Below, piece after piece: positions 19,048-55,046 of a DNA stretch of 64,000 nt. The stretch is from assembly GCA_023251095.1 (NCBI GenBank), contig JAHEZL010000009.1:62001-126000 (forward strand). Reading direction: 5' to 3'. The position numbers were made by a program, and so were the translations under genes. The stretch is from Flavobacteriales bacterium (GTDB lineage: Bacteria; Bacteroidota; Bacteroidia; Flavobacteriales_C; GCA-002722245). Under the pieces are notes generated by a model, which was not told where the DNA came from, ran no database searches, and saw only the letters and a list, made by a program, of their open reading frames with translations. Every line of letters starts with the position of its first letter. Position 1 is the first letter of the stretch.

Positions 19048-20091
19048 CTACTTTTTCTTCTTCTCCAGTGTAAAATGGAATACGCTTCCCGATTTCACCG
19101 AACTGCGAACACCTATATTTTGCTGATGGGCTTCAATAATATGTTTTACAATGGCCAGACCTAAACCTGAGCCACCCAATTCTCTGCTTCTGCTTTCATC
19201 CACACGATAAAATCGTTCAAACAAACGCGGTAAATGTTTTTCTTCAATACCAATTCCATTGTCTTCAATTTCCACCATTAGCGCATCTTCCATATCGGTA
19301 AAATCCACCTTCACCCAACCGCCCTGAATACCGTATTTCAAAGCATTCGAAATTAAATTCACCAAAACCTGTCGGATCTTGTCTTTATCGGCAAACACCA
19401 ATATTTCCTTAGGTTTTTCTTTATCAAATTTCAATTCAATGGCTTTCTTTTTGGCTTGAATTTCCAAAGAATGAAAAACTTCTACTGCTAAATCTGTAAT
19501 GTTGAAAGCACTTTTATGCAAACCTATTTCTCCCGAATCCAAACGGGAAATTTCATCTAAATCTTCAATAATGGAAATCATCCGTTCGGCATTATTGGCC
19601 GCACGTTTCAGATAATCCATGTTGATGTTTTCATCTTCCAGTCCGCCATCCAAAAGCGTAAGAATATATCCTTGCATATTGAAAACAGGTGTTTTCAATT
19701 CATGCGCAACATTTCCTAAAAATTCTCTTCTGAATTGCTCTTGTCTTTTTAAAGTAGCGATTTCGGTTTTTTGTTTTTCCGACCAGCTGGCAACTTTATC
19801 CCCTGCAGATTTTACAGGATCATCGGCCCAGGAATTCTGAATATCAATTTCCAACAATTCCTGCGATTTATGAGACACGATATTTTTATAAATCCCCTTT
19901 ATTTTTTCGAGAATAAATGTTTTGAAAAGATAATAAGCAAAAAGATAGCTTGCCACTGATAAACCAAAGCCCACGGCAATTTTAAGAAAAGTATCGCCAG
20001 CAGGAAGCAAAGAAAAAACCAAAATAATATATACTGCAAAAACGAAAGCAGAAAGCGCGAGTACTAAAATTTTGGGATTTGAAATATTCAT
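19048..20091 (-). CDS. phoR: Sensor histidine kinase of the phosphate system (PhoR-like)
   Basis: 347 residues. Two N-terminal membrane segments (about 9-32 and 36-56) with almost no periplasmic loop are followed by a linker. The H-box is GNVAHELKTPVF (His130). The N-box is LVNLISNALKYG, G1 is VEIEDNGIGI and G2 is GGSGLGLAIVKHIIEAH. Its gene overlaps the response-regulator gene by 4 bases and is divergent from pstS. PhoR-type kinases that sense Pi through PstSCAB-PhoU typically have this reduced sensor region. The gene symbol rests on context. Confidence 0.88.
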   Translation of the reverse strand: MNISNPKILVLALSAFVFAVYIILVFSLLPAGDTFLKIAVGFGLSVASYLFAYYLFKTFILEKIKGIYKNIVSHKSQELLEIDIQNSWADDPVKSAGDKVASWSEKQKTEIATLKRQEQFRREFLGNVAHELKTPVFNMQGYILTLLDGGLEDENINMDYLKRAANNAERMISIIEDLDEISRLDSGEIGLHKSAFNITDLAVEVFHSLEIQAKKKAIELKFDKEKPKEILVFADKDKIRQVLVNLISNALKYGIQGGWVKVDFTDMEDALMVEIEDNGIGIEEKHLPRLFERFYRVDESRSRELGGSGLGLAIVKHIIEAHQQNIGVRSSVKSGSVFHFTLEKKKK

Positions 20092-20762
20092 TCTGCTTCC
20101 TGGTATTTATAGCCTACACCTTTTACGGTAACGATGTAATCTTCTCCTAGTTTTTCGCGCAATTTACGAATATGTACGTCAATCGTTCTGTCACCTACCA
20201 CCACTTCTTTCCCCCATACTTTATCTAAAATTTCATTTCGTAAAAATACTTTCCCAGGTTCTGATAATAACAATTTCAGCAATTCAAATTCCTTTCTAGG
20301 GAAAACAATTTCTTCATTGTCTTTAATGGCAACGTAGCGGGTATTGTCGATTTTAATGCGGGTTTCCGTAATTTCAATATCGTCACCGCCTTTTCCTTTT
20401 CTTCGCAATAAAGCTTTGATGCGTGAAATCAAAACACGTGGCCGTACAGGTTTCGAAATATAATCATCTGCTCCTGCTTCCAGTCCTGATATTTCAGAAT
20501 AATCTTCATTGCGGGCAGTTAAAAAAGCAATCACTGCATTTTTCAATTCAGGTTTTTCTTTAATCTGGTAGCAGGTTTCTATCCCGTCCATTCCCGGCAT
20601 CATCACATCCAATAAAATCAAATCGGGAATTTCTTTCAGGGCAATATCTATCGCTGCTTTTCCATTCTCCGCTTTAAATACTTCAAATCCTTCTTTTACC
20701 AAATTGTAAGAGAGGAATTCTAAAATATCCCTGTCATCATCCACTATCAGTATTTTTTCCAT
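20088..20762 (-). CDS. phoB: OmpR/PhoB-family response regulator
   Basis: 224 residues. The receiver domain has acidic pocket DDD (8-10), phospho-acceptor Asp52 (LILLDVMMPGMDG) and Lys in YISKPVRPRVL. The winged-helix DNA-binding domain has EFELLKLLLSEPGKVFLRNEIL and RTIDVHIRKLREKLG...VKGVGYKY. It is the first gene of the two-gene operon with the kinase and lies next to pstS. It is the obvious candidate to bind the TTAACA repeats upstream of pstS and the OprP-like porin. PhoB/PhoP naming is by context. Confidence 0.9.
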   Translation of the reverse strand: MEKILIVDDDRDILEFLSYNLVKEGFEVFKAENGKAAIDIALKEIPDLILLDVMMPGMDGIETCYQIKEKPELKNAVIAFLTARNEDYSEISGLEAGADDYISKPVRPRVLISRIKALLRRKGKGGDDIEITETRIKIDNTRYVAIKDNEEIVFPRKEFELLKLLLSEPGKVFLRNEILDKVWGKEVVVGDRTIDVHIRKLREKLGEDYIVTVKGVGYKYQEAE

Positions 20763-20857: not shown

Positions 20858-20874
20858 TTAACATTAACTTAACA
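20858..20874 (+). promoter_or_regulatory. Predicted Pho box upstream of pstS (TTAACA direct repeats)
   Basis: TTAACA (20858-20863), TTAAC (20864-20868) and TTAACA (20869-20874) give TTAACA half-sites 11 bp apart. The first 16 bases recur exactly upstream of the OprP-like porin gene at 55020-55035, in the same orientation to the gene. TTAACA-type half-sites with about 11-bp period resemble the PhoP boxes described in Bacillus. The box ends 10 bases before the predicted -33 element. Confidence 0.6.
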
Positions 20875-20884
20875 CCATATGCGA

Positions 20885-20913
20885 TTTGGAGCTGCTTTTC
20901 CTTTATATCTTCG
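20885..20913 (+). promoter_or_regulatory. Predicted pstS promoter
   Basis: TTTG (20885-20888), 17 bases, then TATCTTCG (20906-20913), one mismatch from TAnnTTTG. The pstS ATG at 20933 follows. An imperfect core next to an operator-like repeat is what an activator-dependent promoter would look like. Confidence 0.45.
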
Positions 20914-20932: not shown

Positions 20933-21895
20933 ATGAAAAAAATATTTATTTCAGCATTGGCAGCAACAGCATTACTAAGTTCTTGCGGCGGCGGCACTTC
21001 AGATGATGCAGCTGCAGGCAACGATTCAACAGCAACCCTTTCAGGAACTATTAAAATCGACGGGTCAAGTACAGTATTACCAATTACTCAATTGGTAGCC
21101 GAAGACTTTAAAGAACAAAACAATAAAGTAGACTTCTCAGTGGCCGCAGGCGGAACAGGTAGCGGATTCAAAAAATTCATCAGAAAAGAAATCGATATCT
21201 GCGATGCATCACGTACCATCAAAGATTCTGAAGCACACGAATGCGACAGCTTGGGTATCAAATACCAGGCTTTGGAAATCGGAAAAGACGGTTTATCCAT
21301 CGTTGTAAATCCACAAAACACATGGTTGACCAGCATTACAGTTGCCGAATTGAAAATGATCTGGGGACCAGATGCTCAAGATAAAATCATGAAATGGAAC
21401 CAAATCAGAAAAGAATGGCCTAACGAACCGATCCACCTTCACGGTGCCGGACACGAATCAGGAACTTTTGAATATTTCACTGAAGCCATCAATGGTAAAA
21501 AAGGTGCTTGCCGCGTAGATTACAACGCCAGCGAAAACGACAATCAATTGGTACAAGGTGTTGCAGGAGATAAATTTGCAATGGGCTTTTTCGGATTGGG
21601 ATACTATGAAACCAATAAAGACAAATTAAAACTGGTGGCTGTGGATAACGGTGCAGGTGCGATATTGCCAACGGATGCAACGGTGATGGATGGAACATAT
21701 GCTCCACTTTCCCGTCCGCTTTTTATCTACATCAGCGCGGAAGCTGCTAAAAGAGCTGAAGTTTCTGCCTTTGTTGAATTTTATATAGCTCAGGCACCGG
21801 TGTTAGTAAAAGAAGCACACTTTATTCCTTTAACTACAGAACAGTACACTGCTGAAACTGCAAAATGGAATGAATTTAAAAAAGGACTGAAATAA
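20933..21895 (+). CDS. pstS: Phosphate ABC transporter substrate-binding lipoprotein
   Basis: 320 residues from the ATG at 20933. The frame is open from 20879, but the predicted -7 box lies inside that extension. Lipoprotein signal with Cys in LLSSCGGG. The mature part begins IKIDGSSTVLPITQLVAEDF, the phosphate-binding GSST loop. Further PstS motifs are GGTGSGFKKFI, DICDASRTIKDSE and HGAGHESGTFEYFTEAI. It binds periplasmic Pi and delivers it to PstCA. First gene of the pst operon. Confidence 0.93.
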   Translation: MKKIFISALAATALLSSCGGGTSDDAAAGNDSTATLSGTIKIDGSSTVLPITQLVAEDFKEQNNKVDFSVAAGGTGSGFKKFIRKEIDICDASRTIKDSEAHECDSLGIKYQALEIGKDGLSIVVNPQNTWLTSITVAELKMIWGPDAQDKIMKWNQIRKEWPNEPIHLHGAGHESGTFEYFTEAINGKKGACRVDYNASENDNQLVQGVAGDKFAMGFFGLGYYETNKDKLKLVAVDNGAGAILPTDATVMDGTYAPLSRPLFIYISAEAAKRAEVSAFVEFYIAQAPVLVKEAHFIPLTTEQYTAETAKWNEFKKGLK

Positions 21896-21910: not shown

Positions 21911-21956
21911 TATATTTGGAACCTGCTGCTCTTTTGGGCGGCAGGTTTTATTGTTA
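21911..21956 (+). terminator. Hairpin between pstS and pstC (possible attenuator)
   Basis: Arms ACCTGCTGC (21921-21929) and GCGGCAGGT (21938-21946) pair over nine positions with one G-U, loop of eight, followed by TTTTATTGTT. Placed after pstS, it would let most transcripts stop there, giving more binding protein than permease. TATATTTG at 21911-21918 just upstream also matches a -7 box, though no -33 is evident. Confidence 0.6.
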
Positions 21957-21965
21957 AAAGAGTAT

Positions 21966-22820
21966 ATGAAGAGAGTGTTAATGATATGTGCGATAATTAC
22001 CGTTCTAACGACCGTTGGAATTGTATGGGTACTCTTTTCAGAAAGCTATACTTTCTTTCAGCATGTTTCCATCTGGGACTTCCTTACCGACACCGAATGG
22101 AGTCCGCTTTCCACCAATAAACATTTTGGAATTTTACCGCTGCTTTCGGGAACCTTACTGGTAACAGCCATTTCCATGAGCATCGCTGTTCCTATGGGAA
22201 TCATCATCGCTATTTACTTAAGTGAATACGCACCAAAAAAATTCAGATACTATATTAAACCCCTACTTGAAATTCTCGCATCGATTCCAACTGTAGTCTA
22301 TGGTTTCTTTGCGTTAACAGTAGTGACTCCATTTTTACAAAATTATATTCCCAACCTTGCTGGATTCAATGCGCTTAGCGCAGGTTTGGTGATGGGCATC
22401 ATGATCATACCCATGATTTCTTCCTTGAGTGAAGACGCCTTATACGCTGTACCTAAATCCTTGCGCGAAGGGGCATACGGCATGGGTTCTACGCGTTTGC
22501 AAACTTCTTTTAATGTTATTTTACCGGCTGCTTCTTCGGGAATTATTGTTTCTATCATCCTTGCTTTTGCACGTGCTGTAGGCGAAACCATGATAGTAAC
22601 CGTTGCTGCCGGAAACATGGCAAACCTCACCGCCGATCCGCGCGAAACTGTTGCCACCATCACTGCCTTTATCGTGAACATGAGCAGCGGCGACGTGCAA
22701 CAGGATTCTATTGAATACCAAACGATTTTCGCTGCAGGTGTTACCTTATTCGTATTTACTTTCATTCTCAACAGCGTAAGCTTCTACATCAAAAAACGAT
22801 TCCAGGAAAAATATGACTAG
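21966..22820 (+). CDS. pstC: Phosphate ABC transporter permease PstC
   Basis: 284 residues from the ATG at 21966. A TTG five codons earlier, within the T-tract after the hairpin, is less likely. Six hydrophobic segments. The PstC signatures ISLSEYAPKKFRYYIKPLLEILASIPTVVYG-like region and the EAA loop (LREGAYGMGSTRLQTSFNVILPAASSGI) contact PstB. Inner-membrane channel half for Pi uptake. It overlaps pstA by 8 bases. Confidence 0.92.
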   Translation: MKRVLMICAIITVLTTVGIVWVLFSESYTFFQHVSIWDFLTDTEWSPLSTNKHFGILPLLSGTLLVTAISMSIAVPMGIIIAIYLSEYAPKKFRYYIKPLLEILASIPTVVYGFFALTVVTPFLQNYIPNLAGFNALSAGLVMGIMIIPMISSLSEDALYAVPKSLREGAYGMGSTRLQTSFNVILPAASSGIIVSIILAFARAVGETMIVTVAAGNMANLTADPRETVATITAFIVNMSSGDVQQDSIEYQTIFAAGVTLFVFTFILNSVSFYIKKRFQEKYD

Positions 22821-23670
22821 CGCCGATAAAAATAGAATCAAGGATAAAGCTTTTGAGTACGTGGGCATGGCCTGTACTTTCTTCGGCTTATTCATGCTGG
22901 TGATATTTTTAGGCGATATTTTGATGACGGGAATTGAAAAAATCGACATGGATTTTTTGAGCAACTTTCCATCGAGCAGAGCACGGAAAGCAGGGATTTA
23001 TCCAGCGTGGACAGGCACTTTATGGATTTTAGGACTAACGGCCATTATCGCTATTCCCATTGGAATTGCTGCCGGAATTTATTTTGAAGAATACGCCAAA
23101 AAAAGCAAAATGGCCAATTTTCTTGAAATCAATCTCGCAAATTTAGCCGGTGTTCCTTCTATCATTTATGGTTTATTGGGCTTGCAAATTTTTGTGCGCA
23201 CACTGAACTTCGGAACCAGTTTACTCTCCGGAGCTTGTACGCTGGCTTTATTGATCTTACCTGTAATTATTGTTTCAACCCGTGAAGCTTTAAAAGCTGT
23301 TCCGGACAGTATCCGTCAGGCTTCCTACGGAATGGGCGCCAACACCTGGCAAACCATATGGCATCAAGTTTTACCGGCGTCGGCTGGTGGCATTATTACG
23401 GGAATTATTCTGGCCATCTCCCGCGCTATTGGAGAAACCGCTCCGCTGATTGTGGTAGGTGCCGCAACTTTTATTACTAATGTTCCCGATTCGCCAATGA
23501 GCGATTATACTGTGCTTCCGATGCAAATTTATTCATGGATAGGAATGCCCGATAAAGAATTCGCAAAAAGCGCAGCAGCAGGTATTATCGTTTTATTGTT
23601 GATCACTTTTGTTCTCAATGGTATCGCAGTGTTCCTGCGCAACAGATGGCAGAAAAAAGTGAAGTGGTAA
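22813..23670 (+). CDS. pstA: Phosphate ABC transporter permease PstA
   Basis: 285 residues, six hydrophobic segments. [35 protein letters not shown] is the PstA-type counterpart of the PstC motif (given in part: positions about 93-127). The EAA loop is [24 protein letters not shown]. It forms the other half of the inner-membrane channel. It overlaps pstC by 8 bases, implying translational coupling and equal amounts of the two permeases. Confidence 0.92.
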
Positions 23671-23680
23671 AATATTTTGT

Positions 23681-24454
23681 ATGGAAAAACTGAGCATTAA
23701 AGAAAAAAAACTGGAGGCCATTAACCTCAATGTTTTCTACGGAGCCAAACAGGTTCTCAAGGATGTAAACATTGCCATTAAAGCCAACACTGTTACAGCT
23801 TTTATCGGCCCGTCGGGTTGTGGGAAATCTACTTTTCTCCGCACCTTCAACCGCATGAACGACTACGTGGAAGGCTTCCGCAAAGAAGGTGATATCATTG
23901 TGGACGGTAAAGACATTTACCAAAAAATGATTCGTGTTGAAGAGCTGAGAAAAAAAATAGGAATGGTGTTTCAAAAACCAAATCCCTTCCCGAAATCTAT
24001 TTTCGAAAACGTGGCTTACGGATTAAAAATTCAAGGCATCAAAAACAAAAAACTGATTGAGGAAACAGTGGAGAAATCCCTGAAACAATCGGCATTGTGG
24101 GATGAAGTAAAAGATGATTTGAAAAAATCAGCGCTTTCTCTTTCAGGCGGACAGCAACAAAGATTATGTATCGCACGTGCGTTGGCTTTGGAGCCGAGCA
24201 TCCTGCTGATGGACGAACCGGCTTCTGCTCTCGACCCGATTTCTACTGCAAAAATTGAAGATTTGATTTGGGAACTCAAACAAAAATACACCATCGTTAT
24301 TGTTACGCACAACATGCAACAAGCCGGTAGAATCAGCGACAACACTGCTTTTTTCTACATGGGCGATTTAGTGGAATACGATGAGACAAAAAAGATTTTT
24401 ACCAATCCTGAAAAGGAAAGAACACAAAATTATATCACCGGAAGATTTGGTTAG
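23681..24454 (+). CDS. pstB: Phosphate ABC transporter ATPase PstB
   Basis: 257 residues. Walker [20 protein letters not shown], including the NRMND stretch characteristic of PstB. Q-loop [21 protein letters not shown], signature [16 protein letters not shown], Walker [14 protein letters not shown] and the H-loop [11 protein letters not shown] are all intact. It powers Pi import at the cytoplasmic face. Confidence 0.96.
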
Positions 24455-24498
24455 CGGTGAGCCACCGCAGGCAATTATAAGAACTTTAAAAAAATAGT

Positions 24499-25161
24499 AT
24501 GTCGCATTTAGAATCAGAATTAGTACAATTGAAAAACGAAGTTTTCGAACTTCTTCAATTCGTGCATTCTCAAATTGAGAAAAGTAAAGAAGCGATTCTC
24601 ACCAGTGATAAGGATCTCGCAAGTCACGTTGTTGCCAACGACAAGCGCGTGAATGCTTCGGAGTTAAAAATTGATCGCGATTGTGAAAATATTCTCGCTT
24701 TGTACAATCCTGTGGCAATTGATTTGCGCTTCGTTCTGGCTTGTATTAAAATGAATCATAGCTTGGAAAGAATCGGTGATAACGCTGAAGGCTTAGCGGT
24801 TTATGTGAATATTTCACCCGGTCCATTTCCTGCAGATATTCTGGAAGTATTCAACCTGAGTCCCGCTTTCGACCGTTGTTTGCAAATGTTTTCTCTCATC
24901 ATGGATTCTTACCGTCAGGAAGATCCTTCATTGGCCAGAAAGGTTTTTAACCTCGACGAACTCTTAAACGAATACAACAGAAAAGCAACAAAAACCGCCA
25001 TTGAACTCATCAAAACCAAACCTGAATTAGCAGAAGAAATTTTATACGTCATGGGCGCTTTAAGAAAAATTGAACGCATGGGCGACCTCACTAAAAATAT
25101 GGCTGAAGAAATTATTTTCTTCATCGAAGCAAAAGTTTTACGTCACAATAAAAAGAAATAA
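24499..25161 (+). CDS. phoU: Phosphate signalling protein PhoU
   Basis: 220 residues, all alpha-helical with two repeats of the PhoU three-helix bundle. Metal-site motifs are DRDCENILALYNPVAIDLRFVLACIKMNHSLERIGDNAEGLA-like (E/D-x-x-R-x-x-D pattern) and ALRKIERMGDLTKNMAEEI. It links PstSCAB to the PhoR kinase, repressing the Pho response when Pi is plentiful. It sits at the usual place at the end of the pst genes. Confidence 0.93.
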   Translation: MSHLESELVQLKNEVFELLQFVHSQIEKSKEAILTSDKDLASHVVANDKRVNASELKIDRDCENILALYNPVAIDLRFVLACIKMNHSLERIGDNAEGLAVYVNISPGPFPADILEVFNLSPAFDRCLQMFSLIMDSYRQEDPSLARKVFNLDELLNEYNRKATKTAIELIKTKPELAEEILYVMGALRKIERMGDLTKNMAEEIIFFIEAKVLRHNKKK

Positions 25162-25164
25162 ATT

Positions 25165-26850
25165 TTGCAGTCGGAACTCTCCAATATATTATTCCTCCTA
25201 GGTTCTCTGGCCTTCCTCGTTTTCGGAATGAAGATGATGACAGAGGCTATTCAAAAAGTATTGGGTGATAGTTTGCGACGCATCATAGAATCTTCTACAG
25301 AAAATAAATTCAAGGGAATTTTCAACGGATTTTTTACCACAGCACTCATTCAATCTTCCTCCGCAACGATAGTCGTTGCAGTAAGTTTAGTGAATGTTGG
25401 AATTTTAACTTTGATTGAATCGGGCTCGGTTATTTTAGGTGCAAACATAGGAACCACAGTGAGTTCATGGATGATTGCTGTGTTAGGTTTTAAAATGCAT
25501 TTCAACATGAGTGCCGCTGTACCACTCATTGCTGTTGGTGTTCCCTTCCTCTTCGCGAAAAAAAGAAAAGTGAAATTTATCGGTGAAATCATTATTGGTT
25601 TTGCAATCGTATTTACCGGATTAGAATTTTTAATGTTATCGGTTTCCAACCCCGATCTTTTAGAAATTTATTCTTTCCTGCAAGACAATAGCGATACCTT
25701 TTTAAGCACTTTGTCTTTCATTGTAATTGGCGCATTGTTTTCGTTTGTATTACAGTCTACAGCAGTTGCCATTGCACTCACACAAACGCTGGCCTTCACC
25801 GGAATCATTCCTATAGAAACCGCTCTGGCTATGGTTTTGGGACACAATGTCGGCTCCATCATCAACACAGAAATTACAGCCGTTGCCGGAAATGTGCACG
25901 CAAAAAGAGCAGCAAGAATTCATTCCATTTTCAATATCGTAAGCGTGGGCTGGGCTTCTATTTTACTTCCTTTTATTGTACCGGAAATCAATTGTATTAG
26001 CGAAAAAGTTTTGGGCTTGGGTGATATTCATAATAAAATGGGAGCACCGATCGGCATTGCTATTTTTCACACTGCATACAACACCATCAACGTTTTAATC
26101 ATGATGTGGTTCCTGCCTACTTTAGCTGATTTAGCTACCAAATCAGTGAAATCAAAAGGCGATATGGATGAAGAATTTCATCTCGAATTTATTGATTCGG
26201 GCCTCATGACTTCTCCGGAAATTTCTATTTCCGAAGCGAAAAAAGAATTGGTGAAATTTGCCGAACTCACCAAAACAATGAATGACACTTACCGTCAGTT
26301 GTTAAAAGAACAAGAGAGCGACGCTTTTGAAAACCTCATTACACAAATGAGGAAATACGAGGATCTCACCGATAATTTCGATGAAGAAATCACCAACTTC
26401 CTCACTAAAGTTTCGCAAGGAGAATTGACTGAAGAGAACTCGTTTGAAATCCGCCGACTCCTCAGCATCGTTGGTGATTTGGAGCAAGTAGGCGATATTT
26501 ATTACGGCATGGCCCTCATCATGGAGCGCAAAAAAGAAAGCAAGGTTTGGTTCATTCAGGAGCAACGTGATCACTTAAACGCCTTACTCGACAAGCTTGA
26601 CAAAGCTTTCGACATCATGATCAAAAACCTCAATACGGAATACGAAGAAGTCACTATTTCCGAAGCACGCGAAATTGAAAATGAAATTGACACTCTTCGC
26701 GATACCGCTCAAAATCAGCATCTGGAAAGCATGGAAAAAGGCGATTACAGTTATAAGAGTGGAATGTATTATAAGGATCTTTTTTCTAATTGTGAAAGGA
26801 TTGGAGATTACATTATTAAGGTGAGTGAAGTGGTGACTGGGAAGCATTAA
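25165..26850 (+). CDS. Na/Pi-cotransporter family protein with PhoU-like C-terminus (NptA/YjbB type)
   Basis: 561 residues from TTG 25165, three bases after phoU. The N-terminus ILFLLGSLAFLVFGMKMMTEAIQKVLGD matches the family's usual start, whereas the first ATG is about 22 codons in, so TTG is preferred. Two inverted Na/Pi repeats carry the QSS motif (TTALIQSSSATIVVAVSLV; VLQSTAVAIALTQTLAF). Residues about 350-561 are a PhoU-like helical domain. It moves Pi with Na+ or exports excess Pi. Linkage with pst-phoU suggests Pi homeostasis. Confidence 0.88.
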   Translation: MQSELSNILFLLGSLAFLVFGMKMMTEAIQKVLGDSLRRIIESSTENKFKGIFNGFFTTALIQSSSATIVVAVSLVNVGILTLIESGSVILGANIGTTVSSWMIAVLGFKMHFNMSAAVPLIAVGVPFLFAKKRKVKFIGEIIIGFAIVFTGLEFLMLSVSNPDLLEIYSFLQDNSDTFLSTLSFIVIGALFSFVLQSTAVAIALTQTLAFTGIIPIETALAMVLGHNVGSIINTEITAVAGNVHAKRAARIHSIFNIVSVGWASILLPFIVPEINCISEKVLGLGDIHNKMGAPIGIAIFHTAYNTINVLIMMWFLPTLADLATKSVKSKGDMDEEFHLEFIDSGLMTSPEISISEAKKELVKFAELTKTMNDTYRQLLKEQESDAFENLITQMRKYEDLTDNFDEEITNFLTKVSQGELTEENSFEIRRLLSIVGDLEQVGDIYYGMALIMERKKESKVWFIQEQRDHLNALLDKLDKAFDIMIKNLNTEYEEVTISEAREIENEIDTLRDTAQNQHLESMEKGDYSYKSGMYYKDLFSNCERIGDYIIKVSEVVTGKH

Positions 26851-53625: not shown

Positions 53626-54972
53626 CTAAAATTTGTACTGCATTCTAGCTGTAAAGATATTGTCTTTTAAATCGCTGGTGAATCCAGTAATTTTAGTTAC
53701 TTCATTGGTCACCATGTTGTAGTGAATCATGAACTTCACATTGTCGGTTAAGTACAAGTTGTATCCTAAACCAAGCATAGTGTATTTAATCTCTCCTGCT
53801 TTCATTCCATTTGTTCCGTTTAAATCGGCAGCAGAAACTTTTGTGTTTGGATCATACCACTCATATTTCACAGCAATTTCATGTTTCGATTTTCCAATTC
53901 GTTGGATGAAATAAACATATCCTGCATCAAATGGACGAATGTACATTGCATCGGTAGATTTTGGAGCAACTTGCGGACTTCTTGAACTTGCGTCAGTTCC
54001 GGTTTGTGTTCCAAAGAAATATTCTCCGCGAACAGTTGTTGTTCCTAAAATTGATTTCACACTAAACAAACCTTCTGCTCCATAATAAACTCTTGGCGCT
54101 TTTCCGTTTTTAAAAGTAGTGCTTGTAGTATCTTTTGCTGTCCAGGTAAGTCCACCAAGAGTAGAAGTAAGTCCTTCAAATACTTTATTGTTTTGGTAGA
54201 TGAATCCACCGTTGTAATAAGAACCACCTAATCCGAAAGAGATTTTATCTTCTTTTATTGATTTGTAATACACTGCGTGCCCCATGAAATCTTTGTAGCT
54301 ATCGAAATCAGTTAGACCAGTTACACCAGTGGTTCCAATTGAAGATCCTGTAGGTGTGCTTGTTCCAGGAACAGCAATACCAGTTCCATTAAAAAAACCT
54401 GCATCAATTTTCAAACCTTTTAAGCTTCCTTTTTTAGGTTCAAAAGTCAACATCGCACCCAAGTCGCGTTCGTTAGGCATCAATGATTGCGTAAAACGAG
54501 AACGCTCCGGACTCTCTCTTACCGCAGAAGATTGCTGAATTTCATATCCAAACGGACGATTCATTACCCCAGCAGTGATAGAAAATGCATGAGAATAAGG
54601 ATCAGAATATTTAGCGAAAATCTCCACTAAGTTAAATCCTCTTTCTGTTCCATTGAGTTGCATTACATATTGTGAATTTTTTCCGCTGTAAGTAAACTTA
54701 ACGCGACCTCTTCTAATCATAAAACGATTGTCAGAATATGGAGTGAAATCTCCACCGTCGAAATTTTTTGCACCGGCAGTATCGGCCAATTGAAACTGAG
54801 CTTGCACCCAACCCGACACTTTAAGATTTTTAAGAATATCCAAATCCTTTTTCATAGATACGATGTTTTTGTTCAAACTATCTGTAGTGATTTGAACCGG
54901 AGCGGCGCTTTGGGCGGATGCATTTGCTATCACTCCCAGGCCTAATACAATTGTTGTAAATATTTTTTTCAT
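53626..54972 (-). CDS. OprO/OprP-like phosphate-selective porin
   Basis: 448 residues from the ATG at 54972. A TTG seven codons upstream overlaps the predicted -7 box and is rejected. Signal peptide MKKIFTTIVLGLGVIANASAQ. A short periplasmic helix follows (VSMKKDLDILKNLK), then a 16-strand type barrel with RFMIRRGRVKFTYSGKNSQYVMQLNG and RPFGYEIQQSSAVRESPERSRF, characteristic of the OprO/OprP family. The last residue is Phe (FTARMQYKF). It admits phosphate or polyphosphate across the outer membrane. Its upstream region carries the same TTAACA repeat as pstS, supporting a phosphate role. Confidence 0.9.
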   Translation of the reverse strand: MKKIFTTIVLGLGVIANASAQSAAPVQITTDSLNKNIVSMKKDLDILKNLKVSGWVQAQFQLADTAGAKNFDGGDFTPYSDNRFMIRRGRVKFTYSGKNSQYVMQLNGTERGFNLVEIFAKYSDPYSHAFSITAGVMNRPFGYEIQQSSAVRESPERSRFTQSLMPNERDLGAMLTFEPKKGSLKGLKIDAGFFNGTGIAVPGTSTPTGSSIGTTGVTGLTDFDSYKDFMGHAVYYKSIKEDKISFGLGGSYYNGGFIYQNNKVFEGLTSTLGGLTWTAKDTTSTTFKNGKAPRVYYGAEGLFSVKSILGTTTVRGEYFFGTQTGTDASSRSPQVAPKSTDAMYIRPFDAGYVYFIQRIGKSKHEIAVKYEWYDPNTKVSAADLNGTNGMKAGEIKYTMLGLGYNLYLTDNVKFMIHYNMVTNEVTKITGFTSDLKDNIFTARMQYKF

Positions 54973-54990: not shown

Positions 54991-54998
54991 CAAATATC
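54991..54998 (-). promoter_or_regulatory. Predicted -7 box of the porin gene
   Basis: GATATTTG on the minus strand (54998-54991), one mismatch from TAnnTTTG. No TTG at the -33 position; instead the TTAACA repeat ends at 55019, about where -33 should be. Confidence 0.4.
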
Positions 54999-55018: not shown

Positions 55019-55046
55019 CGTTAAGTTAATGTTAAGCGTCTGTTAA
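55019..55046 (-). promoter_or_regulatory. Predicted Pho box upstream of the OprP-like porin
   Basis: Read on the minus strand from 55046: TTAACA, five bases, TTAACA, five bases, TTAACG, i.e. three half-sites at exactly 11-bp steps. The stretch 55035-55020 is identical over 16 bases to 20858-20873 upstream of pstS, in the same orientation to the gene. The distance to the -7 box is about 11 bp shorter than at pstS, one helical turn. Confidence 0.65.

Follow-up and report, generated by a model that had tools for sequence, protein, structure and literature searches.

A short direct repeat located upstream of both the phosphate-binding lipoprotein gene pstS and a distant outer-membrane porin gene in a Flavobacteriales bacterium is most probably a Pho operator (Pho box) bound by the response regulator PhoB, which would place the porin in the Pho regulon. 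On comparative sequence evidence, we put the probability of this reading at about 0.9. Both sites lie in the window, the whole 64,000-nucleotide stretch of DNA that was analysed; it comes from contig C34 in a genome of 3.59 Mb. A search of the whole window located the 16-mer TTAACATTAACTTAAC exactly at positions 20858-20873 of the plus strand and 55035-55020 of the minus strand, two exact copies compared with 1.69 matches in shuffled sequence at up to three mismatches.

The Pho box of pstS (20858..20874, plus strand) has the form TTAACA-N5-TTAACA, with half-sites at 20858-20863 and 20869-20874 separated by the AT-rich spacer TTAAC. That of the porin (55019..55046, minus strand) reads TTAACA-N5-TTAACA-N5-TTAACG, its half-sites beginning at 55046, 55035 and 55024. 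Both are tandem direct repeats with an 11-bp period, as expected of a Pho box. A -7 promoter element of the Bacteroidota TAnnTTTG type, TATCTTCG (20906..20913, plus strand), lies 31 bp past the last pstS half-site, whereas a -7-like element, GATATTTG (54991..54998, minus strand), lies 20 bp past the last porin half-site. The difference is exactly 11 bp, so the porin array can be described as the pstS array extended, in register, by one further half-site on the promoter-proximal side. A sequence-only reading of this DNA had reported the 16-base element before both genes, half-sites every 11 bp (two at pstS, three at the porin), distances to the -7 element differing by about one helical turn and a phoB-phoR pair beside pstS. 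The first two observations proved exact to the base, the third can be sharpened to the 11 bp given above, and Pfam assigned the neighbouring genes to a response regulator and a histidine kinase.

The pstS gene (20933..21895, plus strand) was identified by Pfam PF12849 and by NCBIfam TIGR02136, scoring above the cut-off. It is followed on the same strand by pstC, pstA, pstB and phoU in this order (21951..25161, Pfam) and, directly after phoU, by a Na/Pi cotransporter gene with a PhoU domain (25165..26850, PF02690 and PF01895). Divergent from pstS are phoB, which encodes an OmpR-type response regulator and the proposed binder of the box (20088..20762, minus strand, Pfam), and the sensor histidine kinase gene phoR (19048..20091, minus strand, Pfam HisKA and HATPase_c). 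The best NCBIfam model for the phoB product is TIGR02154 PhoB, at 215 bits of a cut-off of 296, and the Bacteroides PhoB model gave 207 of 270 bits; because the TIGR02154 score stays below the cut-off, the name PhoB rests on the place of the gene beside phoR and pst and not on the model. The porin gene (53626..54972, minus strand) encodes a protein of 448 amino acids that is a distant relative of the Porin_O_P (OprP/OprO) family, with a weak match to PF07396 (30 bits, above the gathering score of 20.9) that covers the C-terminal 81 residues only.

Within this genome only the strict forms of the element are specific. The 17-mer TTAACATTAANTTAACA has one exact match in the 3.59 Mb, at pstS, and three with one mismatch, which are located at the porin, upstream of an exbB-exbD-exbD-tonB-PstS-like cluster (contig C35) and upstream of a DUF3822-rsmD pair (contig C20). 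The porin site is also the sole exact TTAAC-N6-TTAAC-N6-TTAAC in the genome. Looser patterns are not enriched: genome-wide, TTAACA-N5-TTAACA with up to one mismatch gave 39 matches versus 60 for the reversed pattern, and TTAACATTAANTTAACA with up to three mismatches gave 98 versus 208. The genome-wide scan for TTAACA-N5-TTAACA that the sequence-only reading had proposed therefore fails as stated, since the loose motif occurs at background frequency. An operator with few sites need not be over-represented throughout its genome and, as the loose motif is not enriched, the evidence beyond chance is comparative and does not come from the single genome. Three exact TTAACAAGTC-spacer pairs were located elsewhere in the genome. 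Two of them stand before tandem DUF1573-like genes (C20:20220-20236 and 20682-20698, minus strand), each with TTAACAAGTC(G/A)TTAACA upstream, and their AAGTC spacer recurs at C27:64828. The common spacer suggests another element or a duplication; these pairs were considered as phosphate-linked sites and set aside, no tie to phosphate having been made.

Among close relatives, the pstS box is kept in all six genomes that have a full-length pstS ortholog. In four congeners TTAAC-N6-TTAACA is retained before pstS although the upstream regions diverge widely, and its distance from TAnnTTCG is likewise 31 bp; in another genus, two genomes have retained TTAACTTTTAATTAACA. Three of the congeners carry a different OprP-type porin directly before pstS, with a triple array between this porin and the divergent phoB (for example TTAACCATTACTTAACATTATGTTAAC), and the fourth has lost the pstS-adjacent porin and kept the triple array. 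Of the 10 genomes of the order, 7 contain the exact triple, each a single time and always adjoining porin, phoB, pst or Na/Pi genes, and the reversed pattern gave one match. Across the class there are 36 exact triples in 29 of 295 genomes, and since matches to the reversed control are similarly many outside the order, only the position of the triple beside Pho genes is informative there. The exact triple alone was accordingly rejected as a class-wide marker.

To follow the box further, 80 named pstS loci were collected, 39 of them from Bacteroidota. A TTAAC pair at 11 bp was located upstream of pstS in 14 of these 39, and none of the 39 had such a pair at spacings of 8-10 or 12-13 bp. When the congeners were added, TTAAC-N6-TTAAC was present in 20 of 42 Bacteroidota pstS upstream regions compared with a shuffle mean of 0.07, counts that do not represent independent events because relatives are unevenly sampled. 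Upstream of pstS and its neighbouring porin the pair had a density of 2.0 per kb, versus 0.017 per kb per strand elsewhere on the same contigs, and the spacing-specific enrichment before the pstS and porin genes of other genomes exceeded 100-fold. By the TTAAC-pair pattern, 12 or 13 of the 39 Bacteroidota pstS loci lack the box, including those of Gillisia and Salinimicrobium; about a third have no recognisable box even when boxes before the adjacent porin are counted. The element had been proposed as the Pho operator of this lineage. Footprinting, the 11-bp spacing, the helical phase and the porin synteny favour a Pho operator, but it is not private to the lineage, being spread across Bacteroidota.

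The distance to the promoter follows a rule as well. We scored the stretch beyond the last half-site for its best match to TAnnTTTGC and kept the promoters in which at least six of the seven letters matched (n = 31). In these the -7 element lies 9-10, 20, 30-33 or 40-42 bp past the last half-site, and 25 of the 31 share one phase modulo 11, a concentration that none of 2000 random-phase trials equalled. Such a fixed phase is the geometry expected if an activator stays on one side of the helix and can contact RNA polymerase from any of several turns. The cross-genome counts, the position of the triple beside Pho genes, the phase and the porin synteny described below are direct observations, as are the sequence and its conservation, and together they point to a PhoB operator that would be Bacteroidota-wide. 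The repeated word is very probably the docking site of this phosphate-starvation regulator.

Homologs of the window porin were located in 48 of 395 genomes of the class. An exact TTAAC pair stands upstream of 9 of 45 of them (0.07 in shuffles) and a TTAA pair upstream of 22 of 45 (2.8 in shuffles). Most lie directly before a pstS-like gene, and others adjoin phoB or a DUF47-PiT operon. The closest homolog (genome G333, 69% identity) adjoins genes for a PhoR-like kinase, PiT and DUF47, and a box precedes each of the porin and DUF47 genes. In named Bacteroidota such as Pontibacter and Rufibacter, 9 of 10 pstS-adjacent porins carry the pair. The window porin is not an ortholog of the pstS-adjacent porin of the congeners, an assignment that was rejected at 25-29% identity. 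One congener (G009, C93:1692-2021) carries a C-terminal fragment of 110 residues, which shares 74% identity with the window porin and lacks any upstream part; it is a decayed or misassembled copy. Membership of the porin in the Pho regulon, as claimed from the sequence alone, agrees with the footprinting, the 11-bp spacing, the phase to the -7 element and the synteny of its homologs with pstS, phoB and PiT; we regard the window porin as very probably a member.

What the porin carries is a separate matter. The box could be a true Pho box and the porin a general channel, or one for another solute, that is merely co-regulated. Its similarity to Porin_O_P is weak, and a search of solved structures gave no sequence match. 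The structure model is of low confidence (mean pLDDT 47.9), too poor for a firm assignment to the 16-strand barrel of OprP/OprO, and its top fold matches, at a TM-score of about 0.5, include OprO and OprP alongside many general porins; the likeness to OprO/OprP is no more than suggestive. Against a general channel stands the adjacency of the porin to pstS-like, PiT and phoB genes, which recurs across many families, and we consider this alternative unlikely, though worth bearing in mind.

The array might instead be the operator of a second PhoB-like regulator, or common to both regulators, pstS and the porin then answering another signal too. Such a regulator (RR2) is indeed encoded on contig C20 at about 116900-117110. 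Its gene has no kinase gene next to it and is transcribed away from that of a TonB-dependent receptor, and between the two genes half-sites of the form TTAAT/CTAAC follow one another every 11 bp as a degenerate ladder. RR2 shares 54-57% identity with congener PhoB proteins and has the same residues in the recognition helix. The recognition-helix region of PhoB, VVGDRTIDVHIRKLREKLG, is almost unchanged in the aligned PhoB proteins of relatives and also nearly the same in RR2, so that cross-binding by RR2 may occur. PhoP of Riemerella recognizes TTTAACA and has many genes without a phosphate function under its control (PMC9603813). However, the strongest arrays cluster at phoB-porin-pst loci and not at RR2, and in Bacteroides fragilis pst expression was intact after deletion of the second-best PhoB homolog, BF2185 (PMC3547664). 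Control by RR2 appears improbable on balance. That two TTAAC repeats coincide by accident in an AT-rich genome, in which the reversed control is matched at least as often as the loose motif, is already contradicted by the cross-genome counts, with their more than 100-fold spacing-specific enrichment, and by the conservation within diverged upstream regions and the phase to the -7 element, and it can be dismissed.

The PhoB operator proposed here has known relatives in other phyla. The PhoP box of Bacillus subtilis consists of TTAACA-type direct repeats with a period of about 11 bp upstream of pst. It shares with the window box the half-site word, the period, the direct orientation and the place upstream of pst, but the B. 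subtilis promoter is of the sigma-A -10/-35 type, whereas here there is a Bacteroidota -7 element, TAnnTTTG, with two or three half-sites. The cyanobacterial SphR boxes consist of three copies of CTTAACCT with 3-bp linkers, and their targets are pst, sphX and phoA (PMC1906773). They have the same TTAAC core and 11-bp period in at least three tandem copies, but the SphR half-site ends in CCT and that of the window in ACA, and the phylum and promoter differ. The box described here appears to belong, with those of Bacillus and cyanobacteria, to the direct-repeat type. Among the pstS loci, TTAAC pairs at 11 bp were also seen before pstS in four Firmicutes (L175, L180, L188, L197) and one cyanobacterium (L208), some in arrays of three, and by their sequence these match the known Bacillus and cyanobacterial Pho boxes. 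More generally, PhoB-type regulators bind 11-bp direct repeats in tandem (PMC4415409). The Escherichia coli PhoB box is built of 11-bp units of the CTGTCAT type (PMC4415409, PMC1906773) and is found some 10 bp upstream of the -10 element (PMC1906773); the architecture, tandem 11-bp direct repeats upstream of the core promoter and at a constant distance from it, is the same and the half-site letters differ.

Within Bacteroidota, three studies are pertinent. TTTAACA is the most conserved portion of the DAP-seq motif of Riemerella anatipestifer PhoP, reported as a general regulator, bound at 583 peaks; the half-site is almost the same as ours, but no 11-bp direct-repeat rule or phosphate role is described in the portion available (PMC9603813). 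In B. fragilis, PhoB binds the pst promoter and induction of the porin O gene BF0375 at low phosphate depends on PhoB, the arrangement proposed here, although the operator sequence is left undefined in the accessible text (PMC3547664). OprP in the phoBR cluster of Flavobacterium johnsoniae was not induced by low phosphate, so membership of the porin need not hold in every species, and the portion of that study available describes no motif (PMC8115612). Phosphate regulons of Bacteroidota have thus been mapped by expression in F. johnsoniae and B. fragilis, with no operator sequence defined in the parts of those reports available. A TTAACA kind of Pho box, the TTTAACA motif of Riemerella PhoP and the PhoB-dependent porin of B. 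fragilis are already known; our literature search, which covered open-access papers only, found no paper on a Bacteroidota box with the 11-bp and phase rule.

We propose the following mechanism, in which PhoB as the binder, activation at low phosphate and the substrate of the porin are inferred. Under phosphate shortage PhoR would phosphorylate PhoB, whose monomers would bind head-to-tail on the 11-bp-spaced TTAACA half-sites, one per helical turn and on one face of the DNA. By analogy, the bound PhoB would recruit RNA polymerase to a promoter that has only the -7 element (TAnnTTTG) and depends on the upstream PhoB. The porin array would correspond to the two pstS registers plus a third, proximal half-site ending 20 bp before the -7 element, and the porin would pass phosphate or phosphate compounds through the outer membrane to PstSCAB.

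Three other sites deserve mention. At C34:38287-38303 (minus strand, L265/L284), 24 kb ahead of the window, TTAACCATTACTTAACA directly precedes a gene for a 221-aa secreted protein. The protein has a low-molecular-weight-phosphatase-like Cx5R motif and no assigned Pfam family, and among solved structures it matches an LMW phosphatase only weakly (E 0.07). Two congeners retain the box, the distances to the -7 element being 31, 31 and 20 bp as judged by eye, and this protein is likely a further member of the Pho regulon. A degenerate triple array at C35:3097-3124 (plus strand, L083) precedes the exbB-exbD-exbD-tonB-PstS-like cluster, and its 11-bp array is kept in all four congeners despite changed surrounding sequence. 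At C20:163163-163190 (minus strand, L020) a triple array before the DUF3822-rsmD pair adjoins the start of a divergent helicase-like gene; it is clear in two congeners and degraded in two, and has no obvious phosphate link.

Extended to the phylum, these observations would give a rule in which TTAACA recurs every 11 bp and the spacing between the final copy and the TAnnTTTG downstream of it is 20 or 31 bp, rarely 9 or 42 bp, PhoB acting from successive helical turns on promoters without the usual sigma-70 -35 contact. We lean towards this generalization with some reserve. If it is true, regulon prediction in Bacteroidota becomes computable and would add new predicted members, such as the ExbB-ExbD-TonB-PstS-like cluster and the secreted low-molecular-weight-phosphatase-like protein. 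Because the same word and spacing occur across Bacteroidota, they could be used to predict which genes are switched on when phosphate is exhausted, and the specificity of the box in spacing and phase would make the direct regulon members predictable from sequence alone. The box would also tie a family of outer-membrane porins to phosphate uptake, and it offers a clean test case of how an OmpR-type activator positioned at different helical turns may act on the unusual promoter of Bacteroidota.
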